Position numbers and translations under genes: made by a program
The notes under the pieces: generated by a model
Database searches by the model: none
The model's input: only the letters and a program-made list of their open reading frames with translations
What the model was told of the DNA's origin: nothing
NCBI GenBank assembly: GCA_020629795.1
Contig: JAHDCR010000001.1
Coordinates: forward strand, 152,443-216,442
Reading direction: 5' to 3'
Length of the DNA: 64,000 nucleotides
Origin: Candidatus Altimarinota bacterium
GTDB lineage: Bacteria > Patescibacteriota > Gracilibacteria > BD1-5 > UBA6164
In this document: in pieces, positions 20,015-56,955 of the stretch
Position numbering within the stretch: the stretch's first letter is position 1
Layout: each line of letters starts with the position of its first letter

Positions 20015-23000
20015 CTATTTTGCAACCTTTTGAGATGCATTGTATTCTGATTTAAACTGCGCTACGAGTGGAGCTGGTTTAGAGAGAAGTCTTGATCCAA
20101 AACTTACAATCGTACCTACTGATAACTGATTACCAGTCTTTTCAATATAATATCTGTTTGATACTAACTCACTTAGATTTCAGAGAAGTGATCCATATAC
20201 AACAAGTTGTTTATTAGAAGATTCACTTATTATTTTTCAGTTTGTATCATTAGTTGGGATTGCAATATACGTTCCAGAGAGTTTTTCTACATCTTCCTTG
20301 ATAGTAATATTTCATCCTTTCACAACAAATGCAATATTTTCATTTGTGACAATATCTTTTGTAAGTGTTAGATTACCACCTTCTACTATATAAGTAGTTG
20401 GAGTGTTTATTCAAGCAGGTAATTCTGCTAGAGTAATATTTTTTCCTTTTAGGATATAGACATTATCTAGACCATTAAAGTTAGAGAACTCATCATATCC
20501 AGAAACATTTGCTACTGATGTAGTAGTATTTTGTGTTACATCATTTACATCTTGTGTATAATTATCATTTTTTGCTTCAGTATCTTCAATAACAGTCGTA
20601 TCTGTATTTGTTTCAACAGAGCTAGAAACTCCATCATCACCTACTGAGACTCATACAAAGTTAGTATTGTCCTCAAATCCTGCAATGTTATCTGTAACTT
20701 TTTTAATATCACCTGTAGTTTCTGAACCATTTTTTATATATGAAGTTCATCCACCAATAGTAGCGATAGATGGTTTAGCTACTCTTACATCTAGATCTGC
20801 TGCAAAATAAGCGCTATATAACTCGTCAATAGTACCATTTCTATCAATGTCATGTTTCATAGAAGTAGTCAGTATAGCTTGTCAATAATCTTTATTAGCA
20901 TGAATTGCATCTTTATTTGACATGAAATCTGGATATTTATACACAGGATTTGCAGATATTTGGTCTCTATCTATCTCATGACCACTAAGTGCAACGTATG
21001 AATTATCAGATTTTTTCTGAGCAATAACAAACTTTTCATACCCGTATAGCATTCTATTAGATAAGCTAATACATATTTCATTATTTGAAAGTGTTGGAGA
21101 ATTTACTGAATTATCTCCATCAGTTTTCTTTATACAAAGTTCATCAAAACTATAATCATATTCTGAAGTATTTTGTATAAATGGAAATTCTGGAATACTC
21201 TCTAAAATATTTTTAGCATGTCCAACAATAGTACCACCGAATGGTCCAAATACAATTTCTCCTCCAGTTGGAGTCGTAGTAACACTACAAGTCTTCACTT
21301 CTGGGTCACAGATTATCTCTCATCCTCCTGATGATGAAGTAGAGCTTCATCCTGAAGACCCTCCAGATGATGATCCTCCTCCTGGAATAGTACACTGTGC
21401 TGTACAGGTAAATCCTGGTTTTCCATTATTAGTTCATGCATCACATACCTCTTGTGTTCCGTCTGCTCTGAATCACACTACACCATCTCAACAGAAACCA
21501 GCTGAGTATTCGCAGGCAGCTGAATCCACCCAGTTATTTTCATTTGTCGGAGTAGGAGCTCAAGGTACTTTTCTAACAATACATTTTGGTACCGCATCGC
21601 TACACGTAAAGTTTGCTGTTCTTCTATTATCAGTTCCAAGAACTCATGCTTGAGTTGGAAGATATACAGTATTTCCAGTATCTGGGTTTGTACCACATCT
21701 CATAGAAATAGAGTTTGCATCATCATCTCAAATACATTGGTATGTATCACTCCCTGTTTTGATGATATCTAAACATGATGCTGTACTACCTCCTCAAGTA
21801 TTATTACTAATACTCAATGATTGTTCACAACTATTACTTGTAATAGTATTATTTACAAAACATTTTGCAGTAAAGTTTGCAGTAGAAGCAGCCCCTCTAT
21901 TGAGAGTAACTTGACCAGTTGCTGCATTAATAGTATTAACGAGATTACCAGCTTCGTCTCTCACTTCTATTCTATATGTATCTACTGCGGTTCAATTACA
22001 AGTCAGAGTAGTTGTAAGACTATTTCATCTTCCTGAGTTTGGACTTGCAGTAACACTATCACATGATGGATTTACTACATCTCCATCTTCAATAACAATT
22101 GGTGCAATATCGTGATCATCTTCATCTCCACCAGGTTCACATCCTGAACCAATTTGGTCATCTACTAGATCTGTAGATTCACCATCTCAGTTTCCATTAA
22201 CGGAATCTGGAGTAGAGTCACAATCATCTCAATTGTCTGATGAAATTTCAGCAAAGTTATTTATATTTTTCGGAGCATCGTTATCTATAGTAAATGCAAT
22301 ATCTACAGGAGTATTTCCTCCAGCTGGTATGTTTGCAATAGTTCTCACTGCAATGCTACCTGACTGAGTCCATGTTGAACCTGTAAGAGTTAATCCATTA
22401 GGGATATAATCTGTGATTTCAACTACACCTGAATCAATTGTACCTTGGTTAAATACTGTAATTGTAAATGTAACCGTATCTCATTTATTAAGTAGTCCTG
22501 TAGTTTTAACTACTTTTCTCAGAGCGAGGTCGTATGATGGTTCAACAATTGTAATGACTTCGATATCATGATCATCCTCATCTCCTCATTGTTCACATCC
22601 TGAACCAATTTGGTCATCTACTAGATCTGTAGATTCACCATCTCAGTTTCCATTAACGGAATCTGGAGTAGAATCACAATCATCTCCATCATCTGATGAA
22701 ATTTCTGCAAAGTTTTCAATCACTCCAGTAGCCGTTTCAGAAACAATAAAGTTAATTTCTACGGTTTTTTGTTCTCCAGGATTTAAAGTTATATCTTGAG
22801 TATATCTAGCAATACCATTAGATTCTGACCAGTTAGTATCGTTTAGCTCTAAACCTGTAGGGATATAATCAACTATTTCTTTTACTGTTGCAACAACATT
22901 TCATTGATTTGTAAGTGTTATTATAAATCTTACATCATCATTTGCAGTAAACGTATCTTGAAGTGACGAAAGCGTCTTAGTAAGTGCTAAATCATATACT

Positions 23001-24766
23001 GTGTCTTCTAAAGTAATTCCTGCGATGTCATGATCATCTTCATCACCTCCTGGCTCACATCCAGTTCCGATAGCATCATCCACAAGACCTGTAGTTTCAC
23101 CTGTACCGTTACCATTCGTTGAGTCTGGAGTACTATCACAATCATCTCCATCATCTGATGAAATCTCAGCATAATTGTTTATTGTCCCTGCCGTAGTTTG
23201 AGTAATTTTAAATGTAATACTCAACTTTTTTGTTTGACCAGCAGATATTTCATACATTTTTCTTGTTGCTTTGTTGCCAGATTGTGTCCAAGCTGTATCG
23301 TTGAGCTCTAGACCTGTAGGAATATAATCAGTAATTGTTATTTCCTGAGCATCTACTGTTCCTTGGTTTGTTACAGAGATATCAAATGTAACGTTGTCTC
23401 CTGATTTAAATGGACCTGTAGAATTAACTGAAAGTTTTTTTACTAGCGCTAAATCATATACAGGGTCTTCTAGGGTAATAACTGCAATATCATGGTCATC
23501 TTCATCACCTCCTGGCTCACATCCAGTTCCGATAGCATCATCTACTAGACCTGTAGTTTCACCTGTACCGTTACCATTCGTTGAGTCTGGAGTACTATCA
23601 CAATCATCTCCATCATCTGATGAAATCTCAGCATAATTTCGAATCGTTAGATTAGAGTCAGAAACTATTTTAAATCTAATATTTACCGTGTAAGAATCGT
23701 TTTTATTAAGAGTTTTACTGATATTTTTTGTAGCTTTATTTCCAGATTGAGTCCAAGCTGTATCAATAAGCTCAAGTCCAGCAGGAATATAATCAGTTAT
23801 AGTAAAGTTTCTAGCTACAGCTTCTCACTGATTTGTTACAGTTATTGCGAAAGTAACATTTTCACCAAGTTTGTATCCAGATTTTTTACCTACTATTTTT
23901 TTATCAAGTGCTAGATCATAAACAGGTGGAACTGTTGGCTTAGCTGTAATAGTTTGTTTACATTCTTTAGATGTAACAGTATTATTTACAAAACATTGCG
24001 CAGTGTAAGTACCATCAGATGTAAATTGGTAATTTCCAGTTTTAGAGTTTATTGTCTTAACTATTGAGTTACCTTTTTTAATTTCAATTTTGTAAGTATC
24101 AGCATTTTTACCTGTACAACTAATATTAGAACTAAATGGAACTGTTCCAGTAGTTGGTTTCACATCAATATCTGTACATGATGGAGGTGTTGGAGCCGTA
24201 ACTGGTTTACAGCTATTACTACATCCACCTGTTCCCCAATTTTTCTTTGATGAATCTGCTGGATCACATGTTTCTACTATTTTTCCAGCTCCATATGGAT
24301 CAGTATAGTTATCTACTATACCATCTCCACACCATGTTATTTCATATGGTTGATACTCTGTATGTGTTGTTATTTTTCAATTTGAAAGTACTTTATCAGT
24401 AGTTTCATATATTATTTCTATATTGTTGCTTTTTCTCGTAACAGGATGTCTTTTAATCCCATATGCAGGAGAAGATTCTAATATTACTTTCTTTTCCCCT
24501 GGACTAAAAACTTTGTCATTCTTGACTGCTTGAGTAGGAGAAAATGTAGGATTAGCTCAATTATTAAAATTAGCCTCCTCTCTAAAAGTAACCTTAAAAG
24601 ACTGAAGTTCTAGAGTTGTATTTCATGTATTCTTAAAGGAGTCATTAAAATAATAACTTTTTCCATATCTCAACTTTACAGAATCAAAAACTTGGTCGTA
24701 AGAGTTTACGATTCAATGAGAAAAAAATAATAGCACAAGTACGACGCAAAATTTGATTGTATTCAT
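20015..24766 (-). CDS. Large secreted protein with DUF11-like repeats
   Basis: 1583 aa, one open frame with TGA = Gly, ATG 24764-24766 to TAG 20015-20017. N-terminal signal sequence (about 1-22). After a PKD/Ig-like segment with paired Cys (about 200-265) come four tandem repeats of about 155 aa (about 277-895). Each has a YDLALxK start, a DUF11-type beta core with ITDYIPxGLEL, and an acidic tail with SSDDGDDCDSTPDS, GCEPGGDEDDHD that may bind calcium. A second Ig-like copy, a Cys-rich middle, a Ser/Gly linker (about 1130-1155) and a C-terminal domain ending near KPAPLVAQ follow. No sortase motif or C-terminal anchor is seen. It is probably an adhesin or surface-layer component; downstream of a small lipoprotein gene. 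Confidence 0.85.
22100..23640 (-). repeat. Tandem ~465-bp coding repeats (four units)
   Basis: Four units spaced about 464-467 bp. The acidic segment is nearly identical at DNA level between copies at about 23029-23178 and 23493-23640, and between copies at about 22103-22250 and 22570-22715; the two pairs differ more from each other. The pattern suggests an old duplication of one unit followed by recent duplication or gene conversion. The repeats may allow copy-number change by recombination. Confidence 0.8.
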
Positions 24767-38563: not shown

Positions 38564-39904
38564 ATGAAAAACATTCTTGGAATATTTATTTTTCTGCTTC
38601 CACTTCATGCATTTTTAGTCACAGTACTGAAATGTAAATATGGACTAGATACAAACTATATTAGATTTTGGAAAGAGATTATTGTAGTCACTGTCTGACT
38701 ACTGGTGTTTTTCCGAGCTTACGCGCACCATAATTATTCTCTCAAAAGTATGCTTCAAAAAAATACTTTATTTGGCCTCACTCTCGCATTTATAGCCTGC
38801 ACGGCAATATATATGTATTTCCCTTATTTTGAGCTAAAACCAGCATCAGTCCTCGGATTTAGATATGACGCGTTTTTCTTTCTAACATTCCTTATTGGTT
38901 TGTATTGCGGGATGATATGAGAAATAAGATATTTTTTGAAAACTCTCTTTATATCTACCTTTGGTATACTTATAGTATTCTTGCCATGGTATCTATTTTG
39001 AGACATATCAGCGCTTGCTCAAATTTTTTGATATTCCGATGAAGTATCTACTTACACAGCGAATCAATGTATTAGTTTTTCTCAAAATGTAGATGGACAT
39101 CATAGGTTCCAGGCAACATTTGGAGGACCGATTAGAATGTCCGTGTTTTTTACCATAGTTTGAAGTCTCTTTGCTGGATGGGCACTTTCAAGTACAAGGT
39201 TTTCTCAAAAACAGCAGTACGCTATGATGGGAGGCTTTGGAGTACTACTTGCTACAGGGATATTCTTTTCATACTCAAAAACATCCATGCTCGGAGCAAT
39301 GTTTGCTCTCGCAATGTTTGTACTGCTCAGTTATAAATATGTATATAGAAAAAAAATAACAAGGAAATTCTATGCAATTCTCTGAGGAATTGTCTCGCTC
39401 CCTATAGTTTTAGTAGCACTCTTTAAGTGGGAATTATTTCTCCATTTGGGGTCAGTCTTAAATAGGCTCGATAATCTATCAAAATCATGGGAAATGTTCT
39501 TTTATAATCCAATAGGATACGGTCTTGGTATTGCTGGACCAGCAAGTCAAATCGGAAACTCAATTGAGTCAGCAGGATCATGGCAAGTAGCAACTGCCTC
39601 TGTTTTAAGAGTACATAAATTCCTCCCAGAAAACTGGTACGTACAAATACTGCTAGAACAGTGAATTATAGGTTTTGCTCTGTTTACTAGCCTGATAATA
39701 CTCATCTGATATAGACTCATTGATCTCATAAAGAGAAAAAGAGACTTCCTAAGTGTATGAATTACAACTGCATATTTCTCACTGTGTTTTATGGCTCTCT
39801 TTACTCACGCTTTCGAAGAAGCAGCTACGAGTTATATACTCTTTTTCATAATTGGTTTAGTACTTGCTGAAAGTATGAATAGAGAACAAGCATGAAAAAA
39901 ATAA
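38564..39904 (+). CDS. O-antigen ligase/polymerase-like membrane protein
   Basis: 446 aa with about ten or more hydrophobic helices. The layout matches the Wzy/WaaL (O-antigen ligase) superfamily: many helices, then a large outer loop with YNPIGYGLGIAGPASQ and LPENWYVQILLEQGIIGFAL (about 370), where PEN-xxx-LExGIIG is typical of the Wzy_C segment. It probably polymerises or ligates glycan chains outside the membrane. Its stop overlaps the start of the next gene by 13 bases. Confidence 0.8.
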
Positions 39905-41640
39905 AAAATATCTCTCCCAATATACTCCTGTGACTCATATGTCTTATAGGAACTATCTTTCACTGAGCATTTTTGAGTCTCAATGATGTGATGAAAATCG
40001 CAGATAGCTTTGCATATTTACTCATGAGCTATCATTTTTGAGATTTCTCATCACAATGACTTTGAAATGGATGGTTTGGATTTATTTATTCTCTTCCTAT
40101 TGCTCTGGTAAATCTTATTACAAACAATGACTTTCTCGCAGCTCAAATAGTAAATCTCATCCTCCTCAATGTGTCAGCAATCTTGCTTTGGAAAATTTCA
40201 AGAAGTCTTCTCTCTCCCATATATTCACTCTTTGTAATAGTCCTATTTTTTCTCTCTCCGACACTCCTACATTTTAACATACATATTCTCACTGAAAATA
40301 TATATATACCTCTTTTTTTGGGGCTTTTTATTTTATTGCAAAAGTTAATAGCCAAACTCCACCCCCTCCGTCCTTCGGACACCTCCCCCTTACATAAAGG
40401 GGAGCTAAGACCTATTATATATATTGGTTGCATGATTGGACTTATGTACCTCACACGTGCTGAGGCATTTATATACCTCTCTTCGATTGGAATAATATCT
40501 CTCATCTTGCTCTTTCAAAAGAGACTCAGTATATGAAAATTTTTCTGATATGCTGGAGTATTTTTTATAAGTTTTTTCATATTTATATCTCCCTATCTTA
40601 TCTATCTCAATGGACTCACAGGAGAATGGGGACTCACAAATAAATGAGCTAGTAATCTCAGGCAAGCTGAGCTGAGAGGACAAGAAAAGATGGACGATGC
40701 CTGATTTGAGCAGGCTGTAGCAGAGCTGACGGCTGATAAACACCATCTCATCGCTGGTTTTGCTGGTGGAATGCCCTATGATGCACCATCGATAGAATGA
40801 AGTCTCTGAGAATATGTGTCAAAAGATCCAAACGCATTTTTCAAAAGAATTATGAGCAATCAAAAAAAGCTCTATACTCAGAACTTTCCTGAAATAATAC
40901 TCTGAAAGTCTCCAAGTCTGTACTACTGAGATGATAGTAGATTTTCAAATATATTTTTTCTCCTCTACTGCCTGGTTCCATTTTTAGTTTTAATATTTGG
41001 GATATATAAAGTATTTCAAAAACAGAGAGATTTTTTTGTCATTACAATTGCGTTTTTTATACCTGCAAGCATATTCTTTACTCTCTTTTTTACGCTCAAC
41101 AGATATTTTCTCATATTTCTTCCTCTGATTTTTATAACGCTATGATTTGGGCTCTCACAAATACGTATCTGAAAATACAGTAAACTATTACAAATCTGAC
41201 TCTCTGTGCAGCTAGTATCTCTCCTACTACTCTCTACGCTCGTATATTACAATACCGAGTCACCAAAAGATGACTATTACAGACTCAAAAAAACTGCTGG
41301 GGAATGGTTACAAAGTTATTGTACTCAAGAAATATCTCCAGAAATATGCCCAAATAGTAGTACTCTCGATCTTAAAATTATGGAACGTTTTCCAATTGTT
41401 AGCTATTACAGTGGTTCAAAAACTCGTTACATCACTCCGTATACCAACGATATAGCAGATATTTATGAGTATGGAAGCTACCATAATATAGATATTCTTG
41501 TGGTAGATACTATGGATTTCAAGACCTACAGACCAGAACTTAGTATATATCTCGACACTACACCAGATAATTTCATTCGACTCCAAGAGTTTACAAATCC
41601 AGAGTGACAGAAAGTAATTTTGTATCAGCTTAAAAAATAA
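39892..41640 (+). CDS. PMT/ArnT-like membrane glycosyltransferase
   Basis: 582 aa with about ten or more hydrophobic helices, a soluble C-terminal domain, and the layout of GT39/GT83 dolichyl- or undecaprenyl-phosphate-sugar transferases. The first outer loop has the acidic SLNDVMKIADS. A GC-rich palindromic element sits in frame near residue 155-173 and adds a peptide LHPLRPSDTSPLHKGELRP. The C-terminal domain (about 450-582) is soluble. About 18 TGA codons. It overlaps the preceding gene (ATG inside its last codons) and ends at a terminator. Confidence 0.75.
40355..40412. repeat. GC-rich palindromic element inside a coding region
   Basis: Two hairpins in a row: GTCC-ttc-GGAC (about 40369-40379) and CTCCCC...GGGGAG (about 40383-40404). 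The base composition (C-rich, over half GC) is unlike the surrounding AT-rich gene. It keeps the frame and lies in a loop between membrane helices. It resembles the coding palindromic repeats (RPE-type) of Rickettsia and REP-like elements. Confidence 0.7.
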
Positions 41641-43971: not shown

Positions 43972-46900
43972 CTATCTGAGTATATAACTCGCATTTGTTT
44001 TAAAGAGTATATCAGCAACATCACTGTTATCAGAGAGTTTCTGGAGTTTGAATCCTGCATACTCACCAAATGATGTGTATCTGAGCCTATACTGCGTCCT
44101 ATCTAGCTCTATACGACCATCTGCAAATATAGTCATAAGTGGAATCTTGTTAGTATCACTTTGAGAGAATACAGCCAGACTTCATGGATTATAGGCAACT
44201 CATAGTGGGACACTAAAGCTTCCATATTGCTCAGCATCTACGAGCTTCATGTAGATACCAGTGTCTTCTGCTCTATCAAGAGAAGATACTTGCCTCACTC
44301 TGCCTTCTGGCACCTTGAGGAACTGTTTAAAGACTGTTTGCCCGAGCCTCGTTACAAGTATTTCTGGATATACAGAAGTATTATCTGGATTATTGGTAGC
44401 CAAGACTCTCGTAGTCACAAATGGATCTACGATATCTACTCGACCAGTATATTCATCGATATTTGCTATAACAGATCATGAGTATGTGAGCTCTAGTCCA
44501 TCTGTATTGCTCGATGTTTCAAAGTTATAGTTTCAAATATCATCTGTAGCTATCACATCCTCTCCATCAGCTGACTGAAGCTTCTCTATCACTCATCCTC
44601 TATATCTATAGAGCCGTACCGGCTCATCTATGAGATCCTCATCTATCACTCACGTTATGATAGTATCGTCGATATCTATAATACTTGGAACTGGAGGATA
44701 TACCTCAAATGGAACTCGTTTCGTTGCCAAATTTCCATTATCATCAGTCAGAGCGATGATGATATCTCTCTCAAATATTGAGTCATATGGACCAAACTCT
44801 ATAGAGATTTTTGTAGCTGTTTGCGAGATAATAATATTTTCATCATCTCTATCATTTGCTGGATTTCCATCCTCATCATTATCTGTGAGGAGATCGAAAT
44901 CTACCCAAACATCAGATATACCAGAGAGACCACTATCTTCATATATATATGGAGTCAGATCAACCTCTTGAGACTGATATACTGGGATTCTAATTTTTTG
45001 ATTGAGTCCAATCTGAGGAGCGAGTCTATCTGCCTGAGTTTGTGGTGAGAGAAGAATCTGATGAGAAAGAGTAGAATCAATATTTTCTGCAAAGCTATGA
45101 ATTCTTGCATAGTAGAAGTCATTTTCTACTTGTTGCCTAATGGTATAATCACTACGTGTACTACTTCATAGGTCATAGAGTGTATAGCTCGTAATATCTC
45201 TCATATCTAGGAATACCTGAGAACCATCATAATATCTAATATCTATATGGTCATTTGATCAAAGTAAATCTTTATTCCCATTAAAACTGATTTTCGCTCC
45301 TGGGAGAATTGGCATACCAATATGGTCTATAATATCTGTATCAACGATATCCTCATTTATTTCGAGAGAGACATACGCGTCTCAGCTCAGAGCAAGCACC
45401 TCAACTGGACGAGTGAAACTGAGAGTTTTGTATCTCGCGAGATTTACTTTTTTTTCTTCAGTTTTTCAGACTCTATAGGTCAGTTCAAACGGAGATCCAC
45501 CAGAGTAAATATGAGTGTTTGAAGTAAGCGTTATGAGCTTACCTGCCTGTAAATCATCTCTCAAATTTATGAGTTTTTCTGTTGTGAGTTTTGCTCATCT
45601 AATAGCTCAAGCGTATGAGATTGTTGCGAGATGCTCCGTAACTTCATAATCTTCATTTTGCGAAAGTATTGGAAGATCATCCATATCTGCTATTGCATCA
45701 ACCACATGTGTCTCAACTGTTTCTGGAGTATAACTATCACTATCATCCAAGTATCTATCTACTATAGTATGATATGTAAGTCTAAAGTTTTTAAGAAGGG
45801 TATTCGTTGGCTTTGTAAAAATAACATTCATATATCCATCACTTACTGAGGCTTCTCTAAAGCCATTTACAGATTCATGATACACATCACCATTATAAAA
45901 TTCATTATCTCCTGGAGACACTATCAGTGGTGGAAGAGAAATATAGTTCTTAGCCTCAGTATTTTTTCTATTTTCTTTGAAATATAATTTTCCATTTGTG
46001 AGATAGAAAACATCATCATCTCCATCATTATCACTATCTACAAGTTCTATTTCTTCATTTCATTTTAGGTGATCTACATAGTCAAAGAGCCTATAGTTTT
46101 TATCGTCTTGGAGAACATAGATTCCTTCGTACACGTATTCCATTGCTCCATTTCACTGACATACTCATCCTGCTGACTCACTTGCAGGAGTATCACCTCA
46201 GACTGCTGATAAGAGACTTGACTCTTGGTATGCTGTGAGACCTCCTCTCACTCTATTCATAATACTCTCCCCCTCAGCTTTAATATCGCTTGCAAATAAT
46301 TTACTCTCCTCACTCTCTCCACTCACTAGAGCAATTGCAGCATCAAGAGTATCTTCATTATACGCTCTAAGAGATTCATCATACTGAGCAAATCTATCTT
46401 GAGAATCTAGAGATGTTTTTATAAATTTTTCTGGAGTTTCTAGATTTTTAAGGTCATTTTGCTGCTGTTTTGAGTACTCGATTTCATTTCTGAGAATATC
46501 TTCAAAAGTATCAAATTTAGCTTTATTTTTATTTCTCAGTTCATCAATAAAGTCCTGCTCTTTTGTATATCTCATGTTACTCACCTCTTGCCAGAGATTT
46601 TGAATCTCTGCCGTTCTTGGATTGCTTGTAAAACTACTACTTGCAAGACCACTATTTACGTAGCTTATAAACTCTCTGTTTGTCATAGTTTCATGTGCGT
46701 TTTCTCACATATATGTAATAAGCTCTACAAATTTTGCGCTGAAGAGTCCAACAAGTGTCAGGATAGATTCTGGATTTTCATTCAGTGGAGCAAATGATAT
46801 ATCAGCCTCAATAGATCCATCAGATTCTAAATCTATATCGATATTTTCAGGAACTGACTCTACGAGATTGATATCAGAAAGAGAAATATCAAACATATTC

Positions 46901-49900
46901 ACTACATTGTTAGTGAGGTCATCTATAGGAGCTGTAATAGCTCTTACAGCCTCAAGGAGGAACTCCATTTCAAACTCTAGATTTACGTAAGTTGTAACCT
47001 TGATAGCTGAAACAGCAGAATATGAAAATGCTGGTGGTTGAACATCAATAAAGTCTGTTGGGAGATATCCGTTTCTCTCCGTTAGGAATGCTATCTGATC
47101 ACCTGCTCTCCACTCTGGTACAAACGGTGACTGTTTGAGGAAACACATTGCTTTGGTAATCAGTTTTATGATATTGAGCATTCATTCAACAGCACCAAAG
47201 AGTTTTGGTATTTTAGGTGGTGGTGGTAAATCTGGTAGCTCTACAGTAGGGAGACTTGGGAGCTCAGGAAGTTCTGGAAGCTCAAAAGTAGGAAGCGTTG
47301 GGAGTGCTGGAAGTGAGAAGCTCGCGTCAGGTACATCTGGAAGTTGTAATTTTGGAAGAGTCGGTAATACTATAGGACGTTTATTAATCTCAAAATCTGG
47401 CATATACACAGTCAGACCAGCACGAACATTGTGCAAGTCGAGAATAATATCTGGCCATTTAGGGAACTCTATAATAGGAGCTGAAGGTATCGCAACAGAA
47501 ATGAGTTTAAAAGTAAAGTTTTGTAGGTCTTGTCTTTCATTTTTACACTCATGACACTCCGCTTCGTATCCAGCAAATACATCTATAAATAACTGCCATG
47601 ATTTTAAAATAGCTTTTATAAGGAGATAGAGCTCAACCCAGGCTTTGAATCTCTCTCCATTAGTATTTATCCACTCACCCATAAGTTTCGAAATAGCTTC
47701 GACATTACAAAGTATTTGCTCAAGCCATACTTCTTTTATATTTACGAGTTTTGCAAGCTTATCAGGAAACTCTTTATATTCTTCGAGTATTTGTATATTT
47801 CTCTCAAGCGAATTTACAAACTCTCTTGCTTCTAGAGACGCTTTATCTTTGATGTCATTTTCTTGCTCACATCTCGCTATTTGAGCTGGAGTTCATTCAC
47901 AGGTAGCTCCTGACGACCAAGATCGTGATTTTGATTCTACTTCAGCCTTCCATTGCTCTGCAGTAATTTTCCAATCGAGAATAAACCTATTTAATTCGAC
48001 TTGCTCCATCCATGGAACATTTACTGAAATAACTTCTGATTCAACATTTAGTAGAGGTATATTTCCCATAAATTCATATACCTCTCTAATTCATGAAAGA
48101 GTTTCTTTTCCACTATTTCCATATTGTTGTCACTGTGCTGAAATGATTTTTAGATCAATTGATTTACAGGCTAGAGAGTCGCTACCAGAACAATCAAGAG
48201 TAGATTTTTGAGCTCTCAGCGCATCTATACTTGCTTGAGACTCTGCTCTGTCTGATCAAGAGTTTTCTTTTCAATCATTGAATGCTTCTGAAAGGCCATC
48301 TCAAAAGTTATCGAAACTAAAATCAAATATTCATCAAAAATCTGGAAGTATCACGAATAACTTAGGAAGATTGGTAAGTTTTGAAGTTATCTCATCTAGC
48401 TGTCTTTCTACCCAGTCCATCATAAATCAAGGGAAAGCTGCCACTCTCGTGTTTTGTATATCAACAACATCTCCATTTCCAGTAAAAATAGCTGATGGAT
48501 CAATATCTACAGATCATCACATAGCAGTAGTTCCTCCACCTCATATATTTATAAGTGGTTCTGTTGGAAGTATGTAGTTCGCAGCTCACTGATCAGCTAT
48601 AGTAGAAAATGAATCTCTATAATTCTCATAGAGTCCAGTAGGTTGCACTCAAGTTTCTAGATACTCTAGGTACTCACGTACAAACTCAGACTCAATTTGA
48701 AGAGGAGTACGCAAGTCCTCTTGCGTAGTGCCATCACAATTAGCATGTATGAGTCCAAAACCATTTCCAGGATATGGATATCAGAGTACTCAGGGATCTC
48801 ACTCTCCTCACTCACAGCTCATCAGTGGCATAGCAGCAACAATACAATTTCATCCAGGAACAATTGGATGTACTCATCGAGGGTTTCCATTTCCAGCTAC
48901 ACTCGCTGGTCACCCAAAACATACTGCAATACCAAAACCACCCGTGAGAGTTGGAGTAGCAAATACTCTCACAAAATTAGTAGCTGAATTTGTTCCAAGT
49001 CTTCAACCAGCTCCTGCTGGTCATCCACATCGACCATCAAATTTATTTGTGGACATTGGGTATGCGGTAGGTACCTCAAAACACCCAGAACTTGTATATA
49101 TTGATCTTCAGGTTAATGCTGAAAATATAGGTACACCTTCTCAAACTCTCAGACCATCACCAATAGGGTTTCCAAATAATGTTGGATCATTTCATGGAGC
49201 GAGTGGAGCCCAGTTGAGAGGTGTTGCTATACACGAACCTCCTCAGAATCCACAACTCAGTCACTGTATCAGCTCATCTATATCTTCTGATATCTCATCA
49301 ATTGCCTCATTAATATTATCTAGGGCTCACATAAAGTCTGTAGCACCACTAGTATTATCCATAGTATCATCACTATCTGGAATCCCGTCTCCATCACTAT
49401 CTACTCATAACTCAGTCAAGATATCGTCACTATAATCTCTTATTCTGTCTAAATCAGATGCAGATATATCATCAACATTTTCTGTTGCTCCTGCATTTTG
49501 CGCTGACGATAATAAGTCACTAATATAATCAGGAACACCATCTCAATTTGAGTCTTCTATATTTCAAAACTCACTTCATACTTCGATATCACTCTCTCTA
49601 CACTCAGGAACCGTTGTTCCTCACTCATATGATCTCACATCTGTTGATCTATAAATATCTGCTTGTGCTCAACAGTTTTTTTCATCTTCTTTGAGAATAA
49701 TATCTCCATAAATATCATCTCATAATTCTCACTGTTCATAGAGTCAAACCTGTAAAAATCAATACGAAAGAGGGAGAGTTTCTAATTCATATCGCACAAT
49801 AATTTCCTCTCCTGGTTCTAAAAAGAATCCATCCAATAATATACTGTAATTGTTAATTCCAGGGTTTCGAATAACTTCTAGATTATCCTGCGTGAGTACG

Positions 49901-52900
49901 GTAAATGTATTTGAAGTAAAATGAAAATATTTAGGAATACTGTCAACATATGCAACGTTGTTCTTTCTTGTTGCGCTGGTATTTTTTATACTAATATCAT
50001 AATAAACTCTGTCTCATGATTGTAGGAAATCTGGACTTGTATCCGTAAATGTTTTTGAAATTTCTATTCCTTGCTCCTGAGCATATTGTCATCTCAGAAA
50101 ATATGTTTCTGTCTCTTGCACTGACTCAAATCAAGTATACGAAATATAACTATCGTAAGAATTTAAAAAATCATTAACGCTAGCAGCAGTAGCATCTGCT
50201 GCCTGTGAGTCACTTGATAACTCTCCAACTAATCAGTCACTGACTATTTGTCCATTTGTTCTATTTTCTAAGAATCATTTTGGAGTATATGGAAGAGATA
50301 GATATAAAAAGCTCTCAACCAGAGATTGATCAATAAACTCTGGAGTAGGCTCATCTACCCCAGCAGCTTGAGCATCTGCTATCTCTTGGAGATACTGCTG
50401 AGAATTTGTGAGAATTTGAGTTGCTCTATCGTCAGATAGCTGTACTAATCCATCAAAATATACTCATCCACCATGATTGGTAGCAATCTCTGACAGCTCT
50501 ATGGCATATCCGTCACCAATAAATTTCTTTGTAAAGCTAGGATTGAGTGATGGACCATTACCATAAAAAATATGTATTTGACCTGCATCATCAAGCGTCA
50601 CTATATCATCTCTACCATCAGCGTCCATATCAAAAGTTTCTGCTTGTATAATCGCTCAACTCAGTGAAATACTTTCTGAAATATCAAACCTAGCAAAGTC
50701 TTTTTGCACATTGTTAAAGAGAGCTGGTTTCCCATTTTCTGTCACAAAAAATATATCATCATGTCCGTCACCACTAAAGTCTCATGTTTCTACTAATCTT
50801 ACTGATCAACCATCAGCTGCAAATACGAGATCTCTTTGGTATATATAATCACCATGTATATCTTCATTTTCATACAACGAAACATAGCCATCTCTATGAA
50901 TCGTAAGTACGTCTTGACGTGTATCATTATTGTAATCTAGAATTTTATATCAAATGAGTCCATCATCTGATTCTATCAAAGTCCCAATAGTAGAATCAAA
51001 ATATTTTTCTTGCGTCGAGTTATTAAAAGTATTTATAAGAGGCTTGAGAGAGATAACTGGATCTCATAAATGAACCAATGAGAAACTATGGAAATTCTTT
51101 GATGCTTCTCAAACAGATTCACCAGCAGCAAAGTTAAGCAGCGCAGTATTGCTATCTTGCCAGCCAATTCAAGCCTCACTAAGTGTAGACTCTATTCCAG
51201 AAATATCATTATTATGAAACTCATCGAGTGAGTATCTACTCGCAAAAGGATCTTGATAGTATACACTCAGTGAACTATTTTGTCCGTCATCTTTCAGTCT
51301 TGTTGAGTACTGATTTGAAGAGATATGAAGTATGATGGTATTTTCAAGCGTTGCTAGTTTTGCATCCAAAAGTGTAGTATCACGAGTAACATTTGTTTCA
51401 AATCTCCCTCCTATAGTCATGTGCGCAACATAATTTTGACCATCCATTATTCGGAGTTGCAGTCATGGATTTATAGAATCAGCATCTATTTCTAGATACG
51501 TAGAACCCTTTCTTGTAAATCGCGCATCTTCACTGATCTCAAATACAACTTGGCCAGTCTCTCAAAGTATTTGTATTCCACTATTATTTTCAGATATAGT
51601 GTAGTTTTCATCAACAGGATCAATTGTTATCTCAGTAGCACGTGAAGTATTATAATATCATCTCCCCAGATAGGTCTCAAGAGCATTATTATGTATATCA
51701 ACAATTATTCTTCCCTCACTATCTATGTTTGGTTTTAGCTCAATATCCTGACTAATATCTCCAGAATATAATCCTCGCAGTGTACCTGATTGTTCTATCA
51801 GTAGCACATCATGAAATTTATAAGGAGTATTTAAAAGACTACTTACTGCAAGAGCTGCATTTTCTCTATCAAATAAAACACTTCCTGCAAGATAGTCTTG
51901 TTGGGTAAAATCACCATACTCTGCTCATAACATCATAGAATACATACTGTTGTATGCATTTCATGAAATATTTTCCTTATCCCAAAAGAAAAATGTTTCT
52001 ATACTCCCCGCATTTTTTCATAAACCATTTACACTAAGACTATTTGTTTCATCCCAAAAATCTGAAAGTCTATCTCAAATAGTAGTAGGGAGAGAGTTAT
52101 AATCTTGAGAGGCTTCTAATATAGCTTTAGAATAATATTTTGATAAAAATTTAGTATCAGAAAATACTGTGAAAAATTTTCTCCCGGTTTCTGTAAGCTC
52201 TCACTGAGCAGTAGTAAAGCTTGGTATAGTTAATCTCTCTTTATCAAATGGAGCTTGTCCAATGAGTTCAAAACTATTGTTTGCAAGGTCAGGATCAGTC
52301 GATACCGAAAAATATCCAAGTCATGGAATATCAGTACCAGAAATCTCAAACTGAACTTTTCAATTTGAGCTCACCTCTCGCGTTGATCAAGCTGTGATTA
52401 TATCATCACTTCTTGGGTGTATTTCAAGGTTGATAGCTGTCGCATTATCATTAAATACATCATTATTATACCTATCTTTTAAAACAGCTTCTAAAATCGA
52501 GGAATCCTCACTACTTGCCTCTATCTTATCTCGTGATAATCTCAAGTCTACCTTTATTGGTACTTCTGGCAGTATAGTAATATCTTTTCTGTAAATATCT
52601 ACTCACCCCTCTAATTGAACTTCTATACTAATATTTTTTCATGCCAGAGTAGCTGTTGTAAACGATATCTGGGCTCTACCATTTTCAACCATAACATATG
52701 GCACATCAACTCTTCCATATATACTTGGTACTGTAAGATATACTCGTGAGTTCAAATCTGAAAGTACAGCTCAATTTATATCATTAAATACAATATCATA
52801 AGTGTATTTTCAACCTCCTACTTTTGGAGTATCTCAAACGAGCGTTAGTTCTGGAACTATTTTCTCAATAGTTCTTATACTGAGAGATTTTCGCTGTATT

Positions 52901-55900
52901 ACCTGACCAGAAAGATTTTTCACCTCAATTTCCAAAGTATTATTATCCTCTCTATTGGTACTTGAAAGTCTCATTGCTTTGTATCACTCTATAACTTGAT
53001 ATTCGATTTCTTTTGCTCCGTTATCTGTAAAAGTGAGCCCATCTCAACTCAGAGTAGCTTGCACAGTATAAATCTCTCCACTTGCAGCATTTCAATATTG
53101 ATCAAGTATATTTATAAGATGAGTTGATATATTTCACCCCGTCTCAATAATATTACTACCAAGAATGACATCAATATTACTCGCACTATCTGGCAATACA
53201 TCAAACACTCTATAGCTGTGAAAGTTTTCACTGTCTCTCACATGAACTTCATATCTTCATGAAGTAGAAATATTCAACAGGCCATAAACTGATTCTAAAT
53301 TTCACTGAGAAACTTCCTCCTGTAAGAATACTCTTTCACCAGAACGAAGTACTTCTATACTCAGTGGATAATTTAAACTAAGATTGTTTCAGGCTCTCGA
53401 ATAGTTTTGAAACATAAGTAAGAGCTTCTCCTTTGCCTGAGAGAGAGTATCAGCTTGAAGTACAGCCTCTCAAAGACTTGCACTGTTTGAATCAATAGCA
53501 CATACATTTTGCTCAGACGATGCTGTAATAGTACTGTCAATTGTGTACCTAGCATCTTCTCAGACTCGATATCCACCTATAAAGAGCCTATCTCATCTAA
53601 TTCCTACTTCTAAATCATTACTTTCTAAGCTAATAGTAACGTTTCAATCTATATCTCTTGTTTCTAGTTTTGCATTAAATGTGATATCAGCATCTTGTCA
53701 CTTTCCATAAAAGTAGGTTTTTGTTTTTCATCTCATTGAGCGTATCTCAGCATTATTGTAGCTAATATACTGCTGAGCTTCCTCTAATGCCTCATCAGTT
53801 GAGAGTTCTGGAATAGTAATATCATAAATGACTTTTTCATTTGCGCTATCAAACTCTAATTCAGAATCTTCCGGAACAACAACTCGAGATATATTGTGAG
53901 AGATATAGCTACTACTATCAAATTTAGCGAGCTCTCCTGCATTTGTAATAGTCTGAGAAACTATCGTTCAAGTGGTGAAATAATAATACCTTCACGAATC
54001 TGAAAGAAGCTCAAGCTCTCCACCAATAAGATTCTGCTCTAAACAGTCGTTTATTCCATTTTTATTATCATCTTTATTACATGCGTCAATCTCTGCTTGC
54101 TCCTCTTCGGTGAACAGTGATTCTCAACAGTTACCATCAGTAATTTTAATAGTTGGAGGCAACATTTCTGTGAGCCAACAAATAACAGCAGGGATCCACT
54201 GGAAAATATTCACTCCATCTGGTGGAGCACACTCAAAAGTAGGTTCATCTAAAGACTCATCTCACACATTAGCTCCAGCAATAGTAGTATTGAGCGATAT
54301 GTACTGAGAAATAATATCAGCATATGGATGTATTCCTTTGAGCTCTGGATCAAGTTTCACATACATATTTTGAGCATCACCTGGAGCTGCAAAATATGCT
54401 ATTTCATATGATTTCTTAGATTTTGGAAGATGGAAATTATAATCATTTCACTCAAACTGATTTGAAAGATATTCCTCAAATATGAATTTATATTTTGAAG
54501 CGACGCTATCTAAATTATTCCAATAAATTGAGAATACGAGAGTATCGAAGTATGATATTTCTTTACTCTCATTTTGGAGAGTGAAAACTTCAAGTGGTTT
54601 ATTTTTTAAACTTTCATATAAATCAATATTAGCTTGAGGGAAGTCTCCTGTTTTTAGAATATTATAAATACTTAATTCCTCTCCTGTTAAACTACTTGGA
54701 TTTGAGTCTAATATAGTTGCATTAATTTGATCAGAAATTGTATCAAGATATTCCTTTGTTACTTGCTCTATATTTTCAAGACTCAAGTTATTTGGATCAT
54801 TTCACTGCACCCTAAATAACTGAGGAAAATCTATTCTCTGATATCCATACTCTGGAGCAGGTCAACCTGCAGCTCATATAAAATCTATATATCTATCGCT
54901 GTCAATTGGGAGAGACGGTGTAAATCGAGAATTTATTTGAGCTCCAAACTCTTCATCCGTAGGAGATGTATGTAAAATATCAGATGGAATAGTTTTATAT
55001 TCATAGCCAGTTAATGGTGAGACACATGAATTTCATTCTGAACCCTCACTAAATTGAGTATTAAGAGTCCACTCAGGCTTAGAAATACCATTGACTGTAT
55101 ATGTTTTATTAACACATGATGTTCCAACTATACTCCCTGTACTTGATCAAGATTCATTTAAATCAGCGAGAAATACTCAAACATTATCTCAAATATCATT
55201 ATTTTCAGATGCACAGGTCCAATTAACAGCCCTCGCTCAATTAATAGGGACAACAATATCTGTAATACAATCCGTCCCTCCATCATTATCTTCTCTAGTA
55301 TGTTTTTTTAATGTTAAAAATGTACTTACTTCTGAAAAACAATCCAAAGGACTAGGATTTAGAGATGCATCTTCAACTTCTTTTGATCATAAAATATCAA
55401 ATATTGGTCTAATTGCTCCATCAATATTTGATTCATTTAGCTCTAAGTTCACAAATGACCCCTCTCATCACGTAAGTCCAGCTGGTGAGTTTCCTCCCCA
55501 ATATCATTCTAATCATCTATATACTCATCAATCATTACTTCTCATTTGCCCTCAACATAAAAGGACATCTTCATCAGTATTATTAATATTATATCCACGA
55601 TTTGCCTCTACAAGTGTTCAACCATTAGTATTTCCTCTGTATATACTACATTGAGAAGCCTGAGTAATCGTATTTGCTTGCTTACCAGAATAAAAAGATG
55701 TATATACTGATATATCACAAGCACCTCCTATGGTTTTAGATACAGGAAGCATAATATCTCTTGAAAGACCATTTTGCACCAAATCAGTGATTTGTTTTTC
55801 TAGTGATGTATTCACATTTTTTATAACCTCACTACTTACCTGGTCAAGTACTGAAATGAGAAACGGAGGCATATCCATATTTACAGTTGACGCATTTTGA

Positions 55901-56955
55901 TTATATCTCCCAGCATTATACACCTGTTTTCTCATTTCTCAGAGAGTAGAACCGTTAAATACTTCTAATAATTTTTTAGTAGAATTATCTGTTATATACC
56001 TCGTAAGTATATCTGAAGAGCTTTGCGCGTTTGGAGAATTTTGAATTCCAGAAATATCAAAATCTGGATCTACCTCTGCGAGTAAATCTGCTATATCTGC
56101 ATTTTGCACTCAAAGTATTTTTTCAGATACCTTTTCAGCAAGTTCTTTAGAATATCTGTTATATGTAATGTCTTCGATATTTTCTAAATATGATTCATAA
56201 CCGATATAGTTCTGATATTGGAGTGCCTGATTTTCTCTGAATTGATCATAATAAAAAACATATGGTTCATAATCATCCTTTGCTGGTGAAAATAAACCAT
56301 CTAGGATTCATTTTTCTTGCTCAAAAACTCCCTCTCCAGTATAAAAGTCATGATTTTTATCAAAGAAATCTTCAATTGCTTGTATGTCATCATCTTCATC
56401 TCATGTGTTTGGAGAAATAACCCCATGCCATATCTCAGGAGAAAGTTTGGTATCTGAATCAGTATTTTTTTCATATTTCCCTGATTCATGATTATAGACA
56501 TAAGCCTTATCAACAAAATCAATATATGGAAGCATTGTTCTCGATGAATCAGAACCATCAAAAACAGTTGGGAGTGGAATCTTTCACACAAACACTGTTC
56601 ATATAAGTCGAGATTCATAACTGACATCGGAAAGCGAATTATATCATTCTAGATAGAGAGACTCTCCAAGCGAAGCAATATCTATAACGCTCGCATCTGC
56701 TGGAGTTGGGAGAATCACCACTCTTGTATTTTCCAGAACTCCTTGAATATCTCGAGAATATCTCACGAGCTTTGTACGAACTTCATCATATGTATCCTCG
56801 TCAACTACAATAGATACAAGATTTACAAACTCTTTTTCAAGCGCGTAAGCTCGTGACCCGAAAAAAAGCTCCATTGGTATTTGAAGCGTAAATGAAAACA
56901 TAAGTGAAAATATCAGCAAAAACGAAAGGATTTTTTGGATTTTTTGTTTCCACAT
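43972..56955 (-). CDS. Giant secreted surface protein (4327 aa)
   Basis: One reading frame, ATG 56953-56955 to TAG 43972-43974. I split the whole interval into codons and found no TAA or TAG. Signal peptide about 1-39. Rough order: a 500-residue N-terminal region; an Asn/Ser-rich beta region with Ig-like domains (Big_1-like RLSRDKIEASSEDSS near 1475); FG-GAP/VCBS-like repeats with DYNNDTRQDV, DFSGDGHDD, DMDADGRDD (about 2000-2130); a DUF11-like segment (about 2290-2360); Asp-rich DSDGDGIPDSDD (about 2520); a Cys/Gly/Pro-rich block starting near 2560 (CIATPLNWAPLAPGNDPTLFG-like, similar to blocks I recall in other CPR giants); coiled-coil helices; a PELPxLP repeat (about 3200-3260); SDNDGDDDV (about 3640); Ig-like C-terminus. 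No LPxTG or C-terminal membrane anchor. Probable adhesin. Confidence 0.88.

Follow-up and report, generated by a model that had tools for sequence, protein, structure and literature searches.

Within the window (the whole 64 kb stretch of DNA that was analysed), a gene for a membrane glycosyltransferase carries a short GC-rich palindromic element in its coding region (Table 1). An open reading frame check showed that the gene is open only under genetic code 25, where TGA is read as glycine. Pfam PF13231 (PMT_2) matches residues 70-238 of the protein with an E-value of 8.5e-4, which is under the Pfam cut-off, and orthologues sharing 41-66% identity occur in 28 of 48 genomes of the same family. 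The GC content of the element is 63%, versus 34% in the rest of the gene, and it is the highest in the 64 kb, given that just 3 of 63,954 segments of 46 nt reach this value, all of them at the element. The match to the family model has an E-value of 1e-13 over approximately 80 kb. An earlier sequence-only reading of this DNA had reported two hairpins, C-rich on one strand, in an AT-rich gene, and the sequence at 40360-40405 is as it described.

Table 1. Coordinates of the palindromic element, its parts and its host gene in the window.
Feature	Position	Strand	Basis or remark
Palindromic element, match to family model R1	40360..40405	+	cmsearch 53.4 bits; encodes HPLRPSDTSPLHKGE in the host frame
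5' C-rich arm ACCCCCTCC	40361..40369	+	Mirrors the 5' strand of hairpin 2
Hairpin 1, GTCC-TTC-GGAC	40370..40380	+	Sequence; both stem strands vary together between copies
Hairpin 2, (C)CTCCCC-loop-GGGGAG(C)	40382..40405	+	Inverted repeat I12
Host gene, multi-span membrane glycosyltransferase, PMT_2-like	39892..41640	+	582 aa with TGA=Gly

The core of the element follows the scheme CTCX, hairpin 1, A and hairpin 2, where X is the base before hairpin 1, and is about 34-40 nt long, with 39 nt being the most frequent length in the best-loaded genome. The inner stem of hairpin 2, CTCCCC...GGGGAG, occupies 40383-40404. Its outermost pair is a C-C mismatch in the window copy, and elsewhere it shows matched changes across copies (C-G, T-A and G-C). 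Hairpin 1 is likewise found in matched variants, namely GCCC..GGGC, GACC..GGTC, GGC..GCC and GTCAC..GTGAC. Folded alone, the window copy is only modestly more stable than shuffled sequences (z -1.76, 13/200). The argument for a structure comes from the co-variation across copies. The outer part of the 5' arm probably belongs to the target, as can be seen by comparison with the AAAAACCCC that pre-exists in the empty ThrRS site described below.

The peptide encoded by the element, KLHPLRPSDTSPLHKGELRP, is an insertion relative to the homologues in the alignment. In the closest glycosyltransferase homologue (L157, 65% identical), the loop is 42 nt (14 codons) shorter than in the window gene and reads ...LILSISKFIEKPNIQNTVIISCVLGLMYLTRAEAF... 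versus ...LFILLQKLIAKLHPLRPSDTSPLHKGELRPIIYIGCMIGLMYLTRAEAF... in the window protein. The inserted peptide was not found in the other aligned homologues from the same genus and family, so it is not conserved throughout these transferases, whose loops vary in length. The gene being open under code 25 and the homologues lacking the peptide, the in-frame insertion that had been proposed is confirmed. Its location in a loop also stands, and its size is corrected from about 19 residues to a value nearer 14-15. Peptides that span the insert, in the glycosyltransferase or in metG, are exemplified by HPLRPSDTSPLHK. In the G439 homologue (L177), the same loop carries another in-frame coding palindrome, YHCECNEAIQ...GLLRTSQGQ, encoded by TCATTGCGAG...CTCGCAATGA, which is apparently a CGTC-REP-like dimer. 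Since this is a different palindrome in the same loop, the loop appears to be a permissive site that was struck independently.

A BLAST of the window's own genome (G000) retrieved a second strong copy (G000:C10:5415-5460), 91% identical over 46 nt. This copy sits in the gene for methionyl-tRNA synthetase (metG), in the same reading frame as the glycosyltransferase copy (SPHPLRPSYTSPLSKGEE), so that unrelated genes of one genome hold the element; the same is true of many genes in G401. With the covariance model, which was built from length-matched copies, 7 copies were found in G000 at E <=0.01, plus weaker candidates. The metG site is empty in two congeners (L210 and L211), which carry no insert of any kind. 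In the metG of G381 (L207), a 51-nt segment is present at the codon where the window genome has its insert, and after the common first 7 nt it matches the element at 20 of 44 sites (shuffle p 0.001). This insert and that of G380 (L208), which is at the same codon, resemble old copies that have decayed, or else separate insertions. Weak matches (17 bits) were also seen in two conserved genes of G000, one TsaD-like (L285) and one FemAB-like (L286), and these are possibly decayed intragenic copies.

Occupied and empty versions of the same site were compared in two further genes. For RNase R, the insert is present in G381 only and the site is empty in seven congeners, one of them being the window's own genome, with DDAISLEKTDSG-YILYVHIAD or close variants at the empty site versus DDAISILPLDKGEMSEGQRGWKLYVHIAD in G381. 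Given that the net gain is 24 nt, an extra deletion of 15 nt in the flank must be assumed for this gene. For ThrRS, the site within one genus is occupied in G407, G447 and G445 and empty in G389, at approximately 80-89% nucleotide identity. The net gain is here 39 nt, exactly 13 codons, next to an AACCCC that was already there. Read along the element strand, the sequence is GGAAAAACCCC/TTCC when the site is empty and GGAAAAACCCC/CTCTGTC...GGGGAGA when it is occupied. No target duplication is visible at this occupied/empty pair, which is the sole clean pair. The native tract goes on with TTC versus CTC in the element, and the left junction may therefore sit a few bases further inward. In the orthologous ThrRS copies, hairpin 1 has changed on both sides, GTCT..AGAC versus GTCC..GGAC. 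The ThrRS of G389 (L317), a species without the studied element at this site, carries a third type of insert at residues ~180-195, KKPHPNPLLKGEG, which looks like another coding palindrome. An insertion relative to homologues is shown for the glycosyltransferase, MetRS, RNase R and ThrRS.

The survey of intragenic copies covered 45 copies and then approximately 50 more. Many of them lie in frame within conserved genes, in either orientation and in several frames, and at least 15 host genes are represented. The element lies inside a single domain match of Pfam in MetRS, UvrD helicase, RNase R (RNB), an RluA-type pseudouridine synthase (PseudoU_synth_2), an HflX-like GTPase (MMR_HSR1), a P-type ATPase hydrolase and CoA_binding_2, and inside DUF5915 in an IleRS-like protein. 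In photolyase, Tex, PBP, MutL, ThrRS and a glycosyltransferase, the element lies between domains of one protein, and photolyase holds two copies in opposite orientation. The inserts in UvrD and RNase R correspond to gaps in the alignment to solved structures. The element would be read in the sense direction as LRPSDTSPLHKGE or LCPSDISP, in the other sense frame as PPSFGHLPPHKGE, and in the antisense direction as LPLDKGEMSEGQRG, the commonest of its peptides. Among the intragenic copies alone, the core length is divisible by 3 in 11 of 18 (p 0.014). Genes for DUF559 proteins often directly adjoin the element (L231, L309 and L313), and at L231 and L313 the DUF559 reading frame continues across the element and into the gene that follows (SDR and MiaA).

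With the covariance model, copies were found in 45 of the 77 genomes of the order to which the window's organism belongs. The highest numbers are those of G401 (73), G407 (37) and G389 (35), with 27 in G447, while species of the window's own genus have between 0 and 14 copies. Many copies are apparently intergenic, and in G432 several elements form a tandem cluster within 800 bp (G432:C6:128241-129005, L129/L246). Across the GTDB genome collection, at least 118 stretches contain the 20-mer core CGTCCTTCGGACACCTCCCC, and the phyla represented are Chloroflexota, Bacteroidota, Patescibacteria, Spirochaetota, Synergistota, Neomarinimicrobiota, Chlorobiota and others. Among these hits, the named relatives closest to the code-25 organism of the window are Candidatus Gracilibacteria. 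Many of these records are MAGs and individual ones may therefore be misbinned; the breadth across phyla includes isolates (Lewinella, Muricauda and Flagellimonas). Long forms in Chloroflexota often carry an extra 3' strand, GGGAGGGGG or GGGTGGGGG, that can pair with the 5' arm, and this pairing would give a closed three-way junction. No Rfam family matched six element loci. Carriage by plasmids or phages was rejected because blastn gave no match to the element in either; in IMG/VR, the core is present in one contig. The core strings and the peptides were not found in published papers, in a search of mainly open-access literature. The element is regarded as an apparently new family of coding palindromes, a kind for which the Rickettsia palindromic elements (RPEs) and intragenic REPs are precedents.

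Besides the pairing within the hairpins, a second type of coupling was observed. If Y is the first base of hairpin 2 and y' its partner, then X, Y and y' change together in 166 distinct copies, as C/C/G in 137, T/T/A in 18 and A/G/C in 4, counts that are inflated by related copies. The T/T form is seen in Bacteroidota (L028) and also in the window's order. Across seven positions, the 5' arm mirrors the 5' strand of hairpin 2, with an identity of 5.90/7 versus 4.94 in re-paired types (30 distinct arm/strand types, p 5e-5). Watson-Crick pairing accounts for the coupling of Y with y', but not for that of X with Y. A pyrimidine mirror repeat of this kind fits a triple-strand form or a guide-like recognition of the target. 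A broader reading would have these as a previously undescribed, pan-phylum family of three-part palindromes, in which the mirror co-variation between the arm (or target) and hairpin 2 implies triple-strand or guide-like recognition of the target by some further enzyme, with recurrent in-frame insertions in Patescibacteria; it is advanced tentatively, as a possibility that we rather doubt.

From the scattered copies together with the occupied and empty sites, we infer that the element is mobile. The feature in the window very probably represents a copy of a mobile palindromic element that is small and non-autonomous, that inserts beside short C-rich tracts, and whose in-frame copies survive in genes. 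An enzyme acting in trans would place the element next to the C-rich tract, and this may be a single-strand hairpin-recognising (HUH-like) enzyme or one of another kind. A candidate enzyme would bind or cut single-stranded CCCCTCCGTCCTTCGGACACCTCCCC-hairpin DNA. A copy in a coding region would survive if the total length change keeps the frame, presumably under selection for frame. Such a copy would add 13-14 mostly hydrophilic residues at a tolerant loop, with a peptide that is likely to be neutral for the host protein.

It is characteristic of IS200/IS605 and REP/RAYT systems that the ends bear hairpins and that insertion occurs next to a short fixed sequence, with no target duplication. At the one clean site, the gain of 39 nt in ThrRS beside AACCCC may reflect such behaviour, with which the RNase R site would agree only if its extra 15-nt flank deletion is assumed. 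It was considered that the element is of REP/REPIN type and is moved by a resident RAYT or an IS200/IS605-type Y1 transposase, a reading that agrees with the small imperfect hairpins, with the insertion by short fixed sequence lacking target duplication and with the subfamilies that have coupled changes. Nonetheless, we consider it unlikely, because the most heavily loaded genomes have no Y1 transposase genes. PF01797 (Y1) was not found in G000, G401, G407, G389 or G447, and no match is present in 5 of the 8 genomes with at least 20 copies, whereas G400 has five Y1 matches and yet 2 copies. The PF01797 scan, over 12 genomes and then the whole order, revealed no association with the element. 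The Y1 genes are not flanked by elements, none being found beside those examined.

The REP elements of the GTAG and CGTC superfamilies are short tagged stem-loops found in many phyla (Di Nocera 2013, PMC3733652). Some of them are intragenic, including in uvr genes and tRNA synthetases of other genera, which would also favour a REP-type origin, and those of the CGTC superfamily have a CGTC tag, a stem of 8-9 bp that nearly always starts with AT, a loop of 4-5 nt and a CCA-like tail (PMC3733652). The studied element has instead two hairpins and a mirror-symmetric arm, and it conforms to neither superfamily in tag, stem and loop arrangement. Its CGTC falls in the 4-bp hairpin GTCC-TTC-GGAC, X varies between C, T and A, and the GTAG tag was not found in its consensus. 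By the features examined, the element is not a member of either superfamily.

It is improbable that the copies have a function as nucleic acid, such as a terminator, an mRNA stabiliser or an uptake signal, and owe their spread to gene conversion with DNA uptake and not to transposition. The very strong sequence conservation across phyla, the abundance of apparently intergenic copies and the matched hairpin changes in the orthologous ThrRS copies would all speak for such a function, but the insertions in both orientations in housekeeping genes and the occupied/empty site argue for de novo insertion, as does the range in copy number among species of one genus. That the transferase simply has a conserved loop here, of low complexity or rich in proline, which happens to be palindromic, agrees with the variable loop lengths and the modest folding score, but is scarcely credible and was rejected, given the copy in an unrelated gene, the core shared by several phyla and the homologues that share no such peptide.

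Palindromes that code for protein are known from textbooks as a peculiarity of Rickettsia. The small mobile element proposed here works like these, as a functional kind, an analogy that is well supported. Indeed, the comparison to RPEs made by the sequence-only reading is borne out as an analogy by the homologues without the peptide and by the further copies, which comprise the one in metG, others in G000 and those in dozens of relatives, many of them in frame in conserved genes. The Rickettsia palindromic elements (Ogata 2000, 2002) are outlined in a review as dispersed palindromic repeats of ~150 bp, in frame inside unrelated protein genes (PMC10969869). Both types lie in frame within unrelated genes and add a peptide at tolerated sites, but the studied element differs in its short core with two hairpins, in its lineage and in the use of both orientations and several frames. 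An apparently unrelated element does RPE-like insertion in streamlined code-25 Patescibacteria. Housekeeping hosts such as MetRS, ThrRS, RNase R, MutL and photolyase suggest that in-frame insertions arise quite generally from small palindromes where genes are indispensable, and the congeneric occupied and empty sites allow direct tests of target choice, frame selection and peptide tolerance.

Two other genes of the window, both on the reverse strand, encode large proteins. The one at 43972-56955 encodes 4327 aa with 128 TGA=Gly codons, and its Pfam matches are limited to an FG-GAP repeat and a weak hit to CsgA; it is a putative giant secreted or surface protein. The other, at 20015-24766, encodes a surface adhesin-like protein of 1583 aa with four DUF11 repeats.
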